NCBI GenBank assembly: GCA_938027685.1
Contig: CALJAM010000022.1
Coordinates: 62,001-126,000 of the forward strand
Direction of reading: 5' to 3'
Source: an uncultured Bryobacteraceae bacterium
GTDB lineage: Bacteria > Acidobacteriota > Terriglobia > Bryobacterales > Bryobacteraceae
Length of the DNA stretch: 64,000 nt
Every line of letters begins with the position of its first letter. Position 1 is the stretch's first letter. The position numbers and the translations under genes are program-made. The notes under the pieces are model-generated. The model made no database searches. It was not told where the DNA came from and worked only from the letters and a program-made list of their open reading frames with translations. This document shows positions 3,028-5,670 of the stretch, piece by piece.

Positions 3028-3639
3028 TCAGAAGTCTCCCTCTCTCACGTAGGGATAACTCCAGAGCGTGATTTGCAGGATGAGGGACTTCAGCCACGCC
3101 TGCCACATCTTTTCCACCTCCTCGGCGCTGTGGCCCTTGCGGGCGAGGAAGGGCTTCAGGGTGGCCGCGATGGGGTAAATCAGGGCGGGCACGTAACGGT
3201 AGTGGATGTGCTCGACCGCGGCCACGCCGTCGGTGCGGTTCTTGCCGCTGCGGTGGTGCCGCCGCCCGATCTCGATCTGGTAGTCGAGCCAGGCTTGATC
3301 GTAATGGGCCGCGGCCGTGTCCAGCACCCATTGCCCGAAGCGCTTGCGAACGGCCGCCAGGTAGGCTTCGTCGGGCTGGCCGTCGGAAATCCGCGTGAAG
3401 TAATGAAGCAGGTGCGGGTTCGAACCGACGAAGCCGTACCACACGTCCAGCAACTCCTCGACGTGCGGCGCCAGCACGTCGCGCGAGACCCGCAGCCAGT
3501 GCGCATCTTCGTCGGTGAACAGCAGCGTCTTCTTCAACAGATCCAGCTCTTCCAGCGTGATCGGCGCCCGCGGCACCGCAGCAGTGCCGTAGGTGTAGCC
3601 GGGAATGCCCTGCGGCTGAGCAGTAGCCGTTTGACTCAT
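3028..3639 (-). CDS. Protoglobin-family haem protein
   Basis: This 203-residue single-domain protein matches the protoglobin family (globin fold of about 190 residues as in archaeal protoglobin and globin-coupled sensors). Typical elements are TLEELDLLKKTLLFTDEDA near the N-terminus, the long helix LDVWYGFVGSNPHLLHYF, and YQIEIGRRHHRSGKNRTDG around residue 120-130, where the proximal haem-binding His of the family lies. There is no attached signalling domain, so it is a stand-alone haem protein that could bind O2, CO or NO. The ribosome-binding site AAGGAGG is ideal. It starts 12 bases after the MarR gene, indicating co-transcription and suggesting that the regulator controls it. Confidence 0.9.
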   Translation of the reverse strand: MSQTATAQPQGIPGYTYGTAAVPRAPITLEELDLLKKTLLFTDEDAHWLRVSRDVLAPHVEELLDVWYGFVGSNPHLLHYFTRISDGQPDEAYLAAVRKRFGQWVLDTAAAHYDQAWLDYQIEIGRRHHRSGKNRTDGVAAVEHIHYRYVPALIYPIAATLKPFLARKGHSAEEVEKMWQAWLKSLILQITLWSYPYVREGDF

Positions 3640-3651
3640 TCGTGAACCTCC

Positions 3652-4320
3652 TTAGCCTGGGAATGAAGACCGGGCCAGGTAGGCTTCCCAGTTGCGCGCC
3701 GCCAGCCCCTCTGGCGCAGCTTCGTGCTCGGGACAGTCTACCCGCAGGTATGCTTCGCCGAAAGGCGCGTCCACCAGATCGCAATGGTGGGGCCGCGCCG
3801 ATCCGGCGTGCGCGAACGGACGGAAATAAGTGCAGGTCACGCACATGCGAGCGACCGGAATCTGCCCGCGATCCTGCAAGGTCTTGATGATGCGTATGAG
3901 CGCCGTCAGCAAAAAGGCCTGCTCGGTTTCGGGCAACAGTTGCGCGGCCTCCCCCAGGAAGGCGGGCCAGGCCTCCGCCCGGGCCGCTTCCCGGCGGCCG
4001 CGCGCCGTCAGCGTCAGGCGCACGAGGCGGGCGTCCTGGGTCTCGCGCTGCTTGCGGACTAGCTTCTTGGCCACCAGGGCATCCACCGCGTCGCTGGCGG
4101 TGGCGGCAGTTACGGCCAAGCCGCGGGCGACCTCGCCCACGGTGGCCGATCCGTGGCTGCGCAGCCAGAGCAGGATCTCACCCTGCGTCGGGGTAAGTCC
4201 GCGCGCGGAGGCGCCGCGCTGGACATGGTGGCGCAAGGCAACCGAGATCCGGGCCAGGGCGTGGGCCAGCCTGTCGCTGACCGGCCCCGCTTCGCGTTCC
4301 AGACGGTCGGCTCGCTCCAT
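3652..4320 (-). CDS. MarR-family transcriptional regulator with cysteine-rich C-terminal extension
   Basis: The ATG at 4320 (MERADRLEREAGPV, 222 residues) is preferred over an upstream TTG at 4341 that would place the operator palindrome inside the coding region. Residues about 20-150 form the MarR winged helix: ARGLTPTQGEILLWLRSHG, TVGEVARGLAVTAATASDAV as recognition helix-turn-helix, and RETQDARLVRLTLTARGRRE as wing. After the dimerisation helices there is an unusual tail of about 60 residues with RMCVTCTYFRPFAH, PHHCDLVDAP and RVDCPEHE. These four cysteines and several histidines could bind a metal, Fe-S cluster or thiol-reactive signal. The neighbouring protoglobin suggests a response to a gaseous or redox signal, which is inference. 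Confidence 0.9.
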   Translation of the reverse strand: MERADRLEREAGPVSDRLAHALARISVALRHHVQRGASARGLTPTQGEILLWLRSHGSATVGEVARGLAVTAATASDAVDALVAKKLVRKQRETQDARLVRLTLTARGRREAARAEAWPAFLGEAAQLLPETEQAFLLTALIRIIKTLQDRGQIPVARMCVTCTYFRPFAHAGSARPHHCDLVDAPFGEAYLRVDCPEHEAAPEGLAARNWEAYLARSSFPG

Positions 4321-4321
4321 A

Positions 4322-4340
4322 TGATTAGGAGTCCTAATCA
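4322..4340. promoter_or_regulatory. Perfect MarR-type operator palindrome
   Basis: TGATTAGGAGTCCTAATCA is a perfect inverted repeat (9 + 1 + 9) ending one base before the MarR start codon on the minus strand. TTAGGA-N-TCCTAA palindromes are typical MarR-family sites. Its AGGA may also be the Shine-Dalgarno element, so bound regulator would block its own expression and that of the downstream protoglobin. Confidence 0.8.
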
Positions 4341-4420
4341 ATACTACCTCCGACCGCCGCGGCTGTCAAGCACCCGCGCGGCGCCCGTGGTACGCTGCTC
4401 GCGTCCGGCCATTTCGGAGC

Positions 4421-5390
4421 AGAGTGCCCGCGAAGTGGTTCGACTACGCCGCCTCCCGCACCGTCCAGGCCGCTCTCGAACCGCACGCCCGGGAGCCGCG
4501 CGCCCTCCCCTTGGCCGGTGGCGCCCATCTGCCGGTCCGGATGCGCTACGGCCGGCGCGAGGCCGCCCTGCTCGTAGACGTCAAACATAGCCCGGAGGCC
4601 AACGAGTTGGGCTGCGACGACTCGGGCACGCTGCGGCGCGGTGCGGCCGTGCCTTGCTGCGCCATTTACGAAAGCGAGCTGGTGCGAAGACGCTGGCCCG
4701 CTCGGGCGGAGGTCGCCGCCGTGATCGGCGGCATTCCCGCTGGGAGGCGTGGGAAGCTGCGCATGACGTTGTCCCCCAGATGAAGCAGCGTGCTGCCCTG
4801 CTCTGGAAAGTCGAACTGGGTGCGGTGAGCTTCGAGTGCGGCGTTTTCCGCGCCGGTGATCGCAGCATGACGTGCGCGGAGCTGGCCCAGCGGCTCGAGG
4901 AGACGGGCGGGCCGGTCATCCGGCGCCGGACGGTGAACCCGGCCGGCGCCGGGGGCTCTTTTGCCGGCGCCATTGTCGACGTCGAAGTGGATCCTGAGAC
5001 GGGCAAGGTGAGGATCGTGCGCTTCACGGCACTGCAGGATGCGGGCAGGGCCGTTTACCCCACCGCGGTCGGGGGTCAGATGCGAGGCGGCAGCGCACGG
5101 GGCATCGGCTGGGCGCTCCGCGAGGAATTCGCGTGGATGTCACCGGGGCATCATGGCGAACCCCAGCCTCCTGGATTCCCGTGGACCAACCGCGCAAGAT
5201 GTGCCGCCGCTCGAGACCGTTATCGTGGAGGTTGCCGAGCCTGACCTGCCGCTTGGCGATCGCGGCGCTAGGGAGGCCAACATTGTGGTCCCGCCGGCTG
5301 CGATGGCCAGCGCTATTGCTATGGTGCCGTGGGCGTGCGCTTGCGGCAGTCGCCCATCAAACCTTCCGTTCTATCTTGGAAGCGTGGTCC
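4421..5390 (+). pseudogene. Decayed chimera of molybdenum-hydroxylase subunits (coxM-like N-terminus joined to coxL-like C-terminus)
   Basis: From about 4424 to 4735 the frame resembles the start of the FAD subunit of CO/xanthine dehydrogenase-type enzymes: WFDYAASRTVQAALE, PLAGGAHLPVRMR, ESELVRRRWPARAEVAAVIG. From about 4780, in another frame, it resembles the C-terminal part of the large Mo-cofactor subunit: RAALLWKVELGAVSFECGVF, VDVEVDPETGKVRIVRF, GQMRGGSARGIGWALREEF. A further frame change then gives NPSLLDSRGPTAQDVPPLET and REANIVVPPAAMASAIA, and another gives GVRLRQSPIKPS near 5330-5365. At least three frameshifts and a deletion that fused two normally separate subunits make this a remnant, not a working gene. 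Confidence 0.8.
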
Positions 5391-5406
5391 CATGGAGGCG
5401 CGTCAA

Positions 5407-5670
5407 ATGCCGGTAGTTTATATCCCGCCGCCGCTGCAGGGGCTTACGGGCGGCAGAGCTTCGTTGGAAGTCGAAGGCGGCACGGTGCGCGAAATCATCG
5501 AGAACCTCGATCGCGCATGGCCTGGCCTGAAGGACAGGTTGCTCGAGGGGGAGCGTCTGAGGTCGCACATCCGTGTGGCAGTGGACGGCCGGATCAGCGC
5601 ACTTGGCGTCCTCGAACGAGTTTCCGCCGCGAGCGAGGTTCATTTCGTGGCCGTGGTCAGCGGGGGTTGA
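5407..5670 (+). CDS. MoaD/ThiS-family ubiquitin-like sulfur carrier
   Basis: The protein has 87 residues from ATG 5407, chosen because GGAGG lies 8 bases upstream; an in-frame ATG at 5392 is possible. The pattern VVYIPPPLQGLTGGRASLEV, TVREIIENLDRAWPGLKDRL, IRVAVDGR and a terminal VVSGG is the beta-grasp fold of MoaD/ThiS carriers, whose C-terminal Gly-Gly is adenylated and thiocarboxylated. Carriers of this type deliver sulfur for molybdopterin or other cofactors. It follows directly on the remnant of a molybdenum-hydroxylase gene, so it probably once belonged to that operon. The frame is intact and the Gly-Gly is kept, which suggests it still works elsewhere. Confidence 0.82.
   Translation: MPVVYIPPPLQGLTGGRASLEVEGGTVREIIENLDRAWPGLKDRLLEGERLRSHIRVAVDGRISALGVLERVSAASEVHFVAVVSGG

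Follow-up and report, generated by a model that had tools for sequence, protein, structure and literature searches.

A 64,000-nucleotide stretch of the genome of an uncultured Bryobacteraceae bacterium (Acidobacteriota; contig CALJAM010000022.1, positions 62,001 to 126,000), here called the window, carries a gene for a MarR-family regulator with a cysteine-rich C-terminal domain, preceded by a perfect palindrome and followed directly by a gene for a single-domain protoglobin. The gene order, the cysteine quartet, the palindrome with its position in the promoter, and the way in which the palindrome travels with the regulator can be read from the sequences themselves, in which regulator, cysteine domain, palindrome and partner genes recur together across phyla. 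We posit that the regulator is an autorepressor with a four-cysteine site, most probably an iron–sulfur (Fe-S) cluster, that reacts with nitric oxide (NO) or closely related species and controls an operon of NO-handling haem proteins, a reading to which we give an even chance of being right. The elements of the window are as follows.

3028–3639, minus strand: single-domain protoglobin, 203 residues (PF11563, E 2.1e-34; 2veb, E 2.8e-81)
3652–4320, minus strand: MarR-family regulator, 222 residues (ATG 4320–4318, TAA stop 3654–3652; Pfam match)
3655–3861, minus strand: C-terminal cysteine-rich domain, residues 154–222 of the regulator (conserved cysteine quartet, ordered fold prediction)
4322–4340, no strand: operator candidate, perfect 19-bp palindrome TGATTAGGAGTCCTAATCA (9+1+9; conserved across relatives)
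4341–4346, minus strand: −10-like hexamer TAGTAT, from the sequence (abuts the palindrome without a gap)
4364–4369, minus strand: −35-like hexamer TTGACA, from the sequence (17-bp spacer to the −10 hexamer)

A MarR regulator with a four-cysteine domain

The regulator passes the cut-offs of two MarR families in Pfam, PF12802 (E 7.2e-12; 45.7 bits, cut-off 27) and PF01047 (E 1.2e-11; 44.7 bits, cut-off 24.6), and no Rrf2 family is among its 11 Pfam hits up to E 1. In an AlphaFold2 model (predicted local distance difference test score, pLDDT, 93.7), residues 13–153 form the winged-helix MarR fold, with 140 residues aligned to ST1710 (3gfj) at Z 16.7 and a root-mean-square deviation of 2.1, and have this fold in common with MepR, SlyA and other MarR structures. 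Among the 50 structure matches listed, 49 end by model residue 165 and one reaches residue 206; no structure with this cysteine tail was seen among them.

The regulator has exactly four cysteines, all in the tail as the original prediction had it, along with the motifs MCVTC, HHC and DCPEH and four of the protein's eight histidines. Cys160 (codon 3843–3841, minus strand as for the others), Cys163 (3834–3832), Cys180 (3783–3781) and Cys196 (3735–3733) are spaced C-x2-C-x16-C-x15-C. The tail is ordered in the model (block means of 92–98 over residues 151–210) and, folded by itself, has an overall pLDDT of 88.8. No Pfam hit with E up to 1 lies over the tail, and sequence searches of the PDB with it gave chance-level matches only. 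Foldseek, at E up to 10, returned just 2y8n_B (a HiPIP-like [4Fe-4S] subunit), 1b0y (a high-potential iron–sulfur protein, HiPIP) and a ribosomal chain, all at chance level (E 3.7 and 2.8 for the HiPIP and 2y8n_B, TM 0.38), as is the VIA comparison with 2y8n_B (Z 2.8, 40 residues aligned). A purple-bacterial HiPIP has a cysteine spacing of 2-16-13, and 2y8n_B, titled a glycyl radical enzyme, is presumably HPAD gamma. Passages of two papers ascribe a HiPIP-like fold to the small subunits of glycyl radical enzymes (PMC12358834, PMC12590467); the likeness of the tail to the HiPIP-like HPAD gamma, BSS beta/gamma and MASS beta/gamma is at chance level, and we claim no membership.

A scan of the whole collection gave 62 tail loci in records titled Bryobacteraceae, Vicinamibacteria, Nitrospira, Gemmatimonadetes, Planctomycetales, Proteobacteria, Chloroflexota, Calidithermus, Bipolaricaulota, Rubrobacter and further taxa; on plasmids, two annotated copies are labelled simply MarR regulators. 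The peptide patterns of the scan contained Cys160 and Cys163, which are therefore partly selected, and not Cys180 or Cys196. All four cysteines are invariant in an alignment of the window regulator with 49 homologues (left out were 21 Nitrospira rows, duplicates, and loci L024, L030, L035, L037, L042, L069 and L094), where L82, R98 and G108 are the only other invariant columns and 45 of the 50 sequences keep the spacing 2-16-15. The quartet is likewise kept in 77 of 77 distinct rows of a wider set and, by eye, in 39 of 40 profile-drawn loci of two further phyla; a pattern script also passes 39 of these 40, failing L166 through a long insert and passing L181, whose fourth cysteine is doubtful. 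The conservation on which the original prediction depended is thus borne out, save in one locus (L207) discussed below. This pattern also bears on a classical MarR mode of action, in which the pocket would take a small organic ligand and the tail would be a structural zinc knob: the MarR domain (residues 13–153) is complete and of the usual fold, yet the tail cysteines make up four of the seven invariant columns, although the homologues were found through the tail, and we regard such a mode as improbable.

Three sets of genomes were surveyed with a tail profile: Acidobacteriota (16 positive of 297); Deinococcota, meaning the 111-genome phylum of Calidithermus roseus (L063, genome G368), with 27 tail genomes; and the phylum of L098, which is that of the Chloroflexota-titled genome G375 and includes L046, a record titled Proteobacteria (12 tail genomes and 189 others). 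Histidine ligation of the CxxC-H-C type was considered and is weakened by the Deinococcota, many of whose tails lack the HH pair while retaining all four cysteines, so that histidine appears not to be needed. A simple gene caller recovered the tail gene in 47 loci, against 82 tail open reading frames (ORFs); later neighbour tables come from hidden Markov model searches of all ORFs, and the neighbour-cluster counts still come from the gene caller.

A palindrome at the promoter that travels with the regulator

Read on the minus strand, the upstream region consists of TTGACA (4369–4364), 17 bp, TAGTAT (4346–4341), the palindrome (4340–4322), one base and ATG (4320). This order likely places the palindrome outside the coding sequence, past the −10 box but ahead of the ATG, where transcription is expected to start. 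The perfect 19-bp palindrome claimed for the start region of the gene (4322–4340, plus-strand numbering) is there; the start codon assigned with it, TTG at 4341 (minus strand), we reject, since it begins on the final base of the −10-like hexamer and would be an unlikely start if that promoter is used. The start is likely the ATG at 4320–4318, one base past the palindrome. By itself the palindrome would not be significant, as the window holds two perfect 19-bp palindromes and Markov-1 shuffles a mean of 1.0; chance, a possible origin from the window alone, is ruled out by conservation in relatives, and it is this conservation across loci that gives the palindrome its significance. The conserved core, TTAGGAnTCCTAA (window 4325–4337), occurs once in exact form in the 3.93-Mb genome of the organism. 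At up to two mismatches it occurs in 19 places, against 46 for a reversed control, and we therefore claim no further regulon in this genome.

In a set of 61 near-relative genomes (the organism's own and 60 others), 23 have a MarR match of some kind and only 4 a full-length one (100, 80, 71 and 57% identity). A protoglobin follows each of the four full-length regulators, each start carries the palindrome along with TTGACA and a −10-like box, and the same four genomes are the only ones of the 61 with exact TTAGGAnTCCTAA.

Farther afield, the core was sought within −800/+1000 of the MarR ORF in 78 loci (L038, L039 and L049 having been dropped as duplicates of L002–L004) at no more than two mismatches in 12. 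It was found in 41 of the 47 loci outside the Nitrospira list, a count that takes in the Nitrospirae records L040 and L042, with 23 exact matches, nine with one mismatch and nine with two; Markov shuffles of the 47 loci yielded 1.15 hits in total. In most of these loci the palindrome sits just past the −10 box of MarR or of a partner gene. The consensus ahead of it across loci is tatTA, and, no more than 38 bp upstream, 40 of 53 distinct operator contexts have a TTGACA matched at five to six of six positions, as against 13% in shuffles; 31 of these 40 matches end 22–27 bp before the operator. The copies in L062 and L058 carry three and two mismatches. Where protoglobin or cytochrome P460 comes first (L063, L075, L077, L182–L187 and 13 P460-first loci), the operator precedes that gene; it stands before the first gene whether or not this is MarR, and therefore follows the operon and not the MarR gene alone. 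Genes apart from MarR bear their own copy in L044 and L022. The protoglobin-first locus L087, cut by a contig end, has no operator before its first gene.

At the level of whole genomes, the exact operator occurs in 19 of 27 Deinococcota tail genomes and 2 of 84 others (p 3e-13; this and the later p values come from Fisher tests that ignore shared descent, which tells against taking them at face value), and the reversed control pattern in 6 of 111. The two exceptions are G444, in which the operator is accompanied by a cytochrome P460 gene and by a MarR gene whose tail is damaged, and G486, where no gene of the family was found near the operator. The corresponding figures for Acidobacteriota are 9 of 16 and 8 of 281 (p 5e-9); the reversed control is present in 41 of these 297 genomes, so a lone hit in a genome without the tail carries little weight. 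Across the sets scanned, two exact copies are found in G002 and G214 only, and every other genome with a match has one. The second palindrome of G002 (L104) lies inside an ORF that is TPR-like by eye, and we set it aside as chance. That of G214 (L105, 1501–1513) lies about 90 bp upstream of a 101-residue helix-hairpin-helix ORF, ComEA-like by eye, and may mark an additional target not linked to MarR.

Two further features of these promoters deserve mention. In the window (4318–4340) and in L003, L004, L047, L060, L091 and L098, the ATG stands a few bases past the operator and no other Shine-Dalgarno sequence was seen; in these MarR-first loci, AGGA within the operator may serve as the ribosome site, or the mRNA may be nearly leaderless. 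In the Nitrospira group (L053–L094), the tailed MarR is found without the palindrome and with a TTGACG...ATAGACT-like promoter; 11 loci inspected for an alternative operator had no shared palindrome, only this promoter.

Protoglobin and cytochrome P460 as partners

The partner in the window is, as had been claimed, a haem-globin without an output domain: PF11563 spans residues 30–202 of 203 (119.3 bits), and the 12-nt gap between the MarR stop and the protoglobin ATG, GGAGGTTCACGA, contains the Shine-Dalgarno-like GGAGG. The closest solved globin, Methanosarcina acetivorans protoglobin (MaPgb; 2veb), belongs to the same family and aligns over nearly the whole length, so that Trp67, Tyr68, Phe101 and His128 correspond to MaPgb Trp60, Tyr61, Phe93 and His120, the last of which we take to be the proximal ligand. 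These four residues are kept in 20, 20, 20 and 21 of 22 protoglobin ORFs of the loci, the others being gaps. Trp60, Tyr61 and Phe93 are described in a passage of PMC3680402 as distal haem-pocket residues. The two proteins differ at MaPgb CysE20 (position 101, Ser in 2veb), which aligns with Ala109, and the window gene is tied to a regulator, whereas M. acetivorans was compared at the protein level.

Protoglobin lies within the locus in 17 of 62 tail loci (a fragment only in L098, and with two ORFs between in L099). A tree of 50 MarRs, of which 15 have protoglobin, requires at least seven changes in the presence of that gene; it was built without 25 of 31 Nitrospira rows, the duplicates L001–L004, the near-duplicates L048 and L077, the partial L087, and L037. 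MarR mostly comes first, and protoglobin does so in L063, L075, L077 and L087. All six full-length protoglobins of the 111 Deinococcota genomes accompany a tailed MarR, and each begins behind a copy of the operator, five exact and one with one mismatch (a weak partial hit in G440 was left out). A protoglobin is present in 11 of the 12 tail genomes of the phylum of L098 (G375 with a fragment) and in 7 of the 189 others (p 9e-13); in eight of the 12 it is in the same locus (on the opposite strand in L174), in two about 7 kb away and in one on another contig, one genome having none. The association is looser in Acidobacteriota, with 3 of 16 tail genomes and 4 of 281 others (p 0.004; the contig-end fragment of G243 and the weak hit of G108 not counted): the gene is adjacent in G000, on another contig in G142, and in G263 divergent, about 1.2 kb from the tailed MarR and with its own one-mismatch operator at its start. 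Protoglobin is a recurrent, not a universal, partner of the tailed MarR; the adjacency of regulator and globin expected in the original prediction stood as a repeated arrangement (the 17 loci, and 6 of 6 in Deinococcota) and fell as a rule, with one of seven strong Acidobacteriota protoglobins adjacent.

Nor is the system a two-gene switch, which proved too narrow a description, since cytochrome P460/c'-beta, thioredoxin-like and other genes come under this operator and regulator as well. A P460-family gene, detected with our own profile, stands just before MarR in 17 of 27 Deinococcota tail loci, and protoglobin, P460 and MarR follow in a row in four (L150, L151, L161 and L168); the other ten loci have protoglobin alone (two), a 240-residue protein (four) or no recognised partner (four). 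Two of the P460 proteins were tried in Pfam and confirmed (4.1e-30 and 3.3e-31). The closest PDB chain, 7ead (3.7e-79), is titled "Cytochrome_P460 domain-containing protein" in an entry that itself gave no organism, and we take it to be Thermus thermophilus cytochrome c'-beta. In the Acidobacteriota loci L026–L028, a divergent P460 gene has the operator at its start. In L167 (526–1082, MarR orientation), a 21-residue ORF with a protoglobin-like start (EIPGYAYG) lies behind the operator and ahead of the P460 gene, and is perhaps the remnant of a deleted protoglobin.

The haem partners also invite an oxygen sensor, in which a labile Fe-S tail would report O2 and protoglobin would store, scavenge or use it. 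Fe-S clusters are often O2-labile, but cytochrome P460/c'-beta and the thiol partners described below suit O2 handling poorly, and in hosts that are in many cases probably aerobes, release triggered by O2 would be constant; we regard this reading as improbable.

Thiol-related and other partners

Neighbour clusters include thioredoxin-like proteins (eight loci), AhpC/TSA-like redoxins (six), AhpD/CMD-like proteins (five, in two clusters) and the 240-residue protein (six). Protoglobin is joined with a thioredoxin-like or glutaredoxin gene in L062 and L099. These neighbours bring in a thiol or zinc redox switch, in which a Zn(Cys)4 or free-thiol tail would be oxidised by peroxide, hypochlorite or electrophiles and the globin would be one of several oxidative-stress proteins. 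Matches to Thioredoxin_3 (1.3e-6, L044), AhpC/TSA (5e-11, L095), CMD/AhpD (2.7e-13, L141) and glutaredoxin (1.3e-14, L099) are in keeping with such a switch, as are a Rhizobium copy three genes downstream of a catalase gene and the suitability of a CxxC plus two cysteines for zinc knuckles. By itself it would leave unexplained, however, why the commonest Deinococcota partners are two unrelated NO-handling haem families (P460 in 17 and protoglobin in 6 of 27 loci, both in 4) and why protoglobin shares the locus in 8 of the 12 tail genomes of the phylum of L098. We consider the thiol or zinc switch a serious possibility, if a doubtful one.

The family of about 240 residues is found beside the tailed MarR in L022, L043, L050, L051, L088, L096, L144–L146 and L166, in some loci directly behind the operator. 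Its members have HPDFDD and WHSHWVVL-like motifs, several have by eye a signal-peptide-like start, and no Pfam match was found in those tried.

A model for NO-responsive repression

In the model that we favour, of an NO-responsive autorepressor, a MarR dimer would occupy TTAGGAnTCCTAA, just past the −10 box and on top of the probable transcription start, shutting both its own promoter and that of the partner genes; repression is the mode proposed because the site covers the expected start. MarR proteins typically bind a palindrome, often their own, and the conserved palindrome ahead of this gene is indirect evidence of such binding. The C-terminal four-cysteine site, most likely an Fe-S cluster, would react with NO or related reactive nitrogen or oxygen species, and the reaction would weaken DNA binding and release the operon. 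Among its products would be haem proteins able to bind NO or to convert it, namely the protoglobin of the window and, in many Deinococcota, cytochrome P460/c'-beta, presumably for detoxification, and in other lineages thiol-repair proteins would be added to the haem proteins or take their place. The signal is proposed to be NO or a related species because, in two of the three surveyed phyla, the regulator's chief partners belong to two unrelated NO-handling haem families, and the cluster because of the four cysteines, the analogy with ArnR (below) and the weak HiPIP-like structural hits. In vitro, M. acetivorans protoglobin (the CysE20Ser mutant) forms NO from nitrite and isomerises peroxynitrite, according to a passage of PMC4020757. 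Extended to an as yet undescribed multi-phylum family of NO-responsive MarR repressors that have a HiPIP-like [4Fe-4S] tail, share the operator TTAGGAnTCCTAA and regulate protoglobin, cytochrome c'-beta/P460 and thiol-repair genes, the proposal becomes rather unlikely to hold in every part.

Several observations weigh against the NO-responsive model. (i) Foldseek E values of 2.8 and 3.7 amount to chance, the Fe-S cluster is not established, and Zn(Cys)4 would fit the sequence equally well. (ii) L207, found through the operator and under the search threshold, keeps the operator and P460 without the fourth cysteine. (iii) The operator is lacking, at up to two mismatches, in six of the 47 loci, in all 31 loci of the Nitrospira list, in L173, L175–L179 and L181 of the phylum of L098, and in L152, L155, L158 and L159 of the Deinococcota; in about 24 Nitrospira loci the tailed MarR comes after a universal stress protein gene and a PPi-type phosphofructokinase gene. 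(iv) Six of the seven strong Acidobacteriota protoglobins do not directly adjoin a tailed MarR. One in L126 (986–1375, minus strand) has none and is divergent, by eye, to an HxlR-type gene; protoglobin may thus be paired elsewhere with another class of regulator. (v) The 16 Acidobacteriota tail genomes have a thioredoxin-like neighbour in five cases (L023, L025, L032, L034 and L036), P460 in four (L024 and L026–L028) and an adjacent protoglobin in one, an order that favours the thiol switch there; the alphaproteobacterial partners are a redoxin, an AhpD-like protein and the 240-residue protein. The partners in these two lineages indicate thiol or peroxide stress as much as NO.

Relation to known systems

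The arrangement would work much as NsrR–hmp or ArnR–hmp do, with a regulator of another family or subfamily and with other targets. As described in parts of PMC12343034, NsrR is an NO-responsive Fe-S repressor with the globin gene hmp as its principal target, and ArnR of Corynebacterium glutamicum, a regulator of narKGHJI and hmp, represses this flavohaemoglobin gene and binds a [4Fe-4S] cluster, NO abolishing its binding to DNA. NsrR belongs to the Rrf2 family, whereas the window regulator is a MarR protein by Pfam, and the target globins differ. The descriptions also set ArnR apart: it has three cysteines (179, 193 and 223) and perhaps a histidine, in contrast to the four in a CxxC..C..C arrangement here; its homologues are, by the same source, almost confined to Actinobacteria, whereas the tailed MarR occurs in many phyla; and its target is a flavohaemoglobin, not a protoglobin. 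In the open-licence literature, judged mostly by titles, we found no description of the MarR–protoglobin pair, the operator or the cysteine tail, and the palindrome as a text string had no match there.

Neighbouring genes in the window

An M28 peptidase gene follows protoglobin in the window and in two relatives of the genus (L002 and L003). Divergent from the regulator, 4424–5670 on the plus strand holds fragments of two genes, FAD_binding_5 and MoCoBD_2, with a ThiS-like ORF after them, and looks like a decayed molybdenum hydroxylase; L003 has in the same place a complete-looking FAD subunit (510–1382) and a 2Fe-2S subunit (25–513).

Implications

According to PMC3680402, the part that the protoglobin of M. 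acetivorans plays in biology "is still unknown", and the role of cytochrome c'-beta is only proposed in PMC11928373, which also mentions the Thermus thermophilus protein. A regulator and an operator common to both, with the two genes in one row in several Deinococcota, make the question of their role testable; if the extended, multi-phylum reading is true, standalone protoglobins and Thermus-type cytochrome c'-beta would share one physiological role. The operator is so specific, with mostly one exact copy per genome, that it can be used to find target genes elsewhere, among them the 240-residue family without a Pfam match. Taken together, the sequences show a widespread regulatory module, and they suggest that it senses NO or a comparable reactive gas and switches on the haem proteins that deal with this gas.
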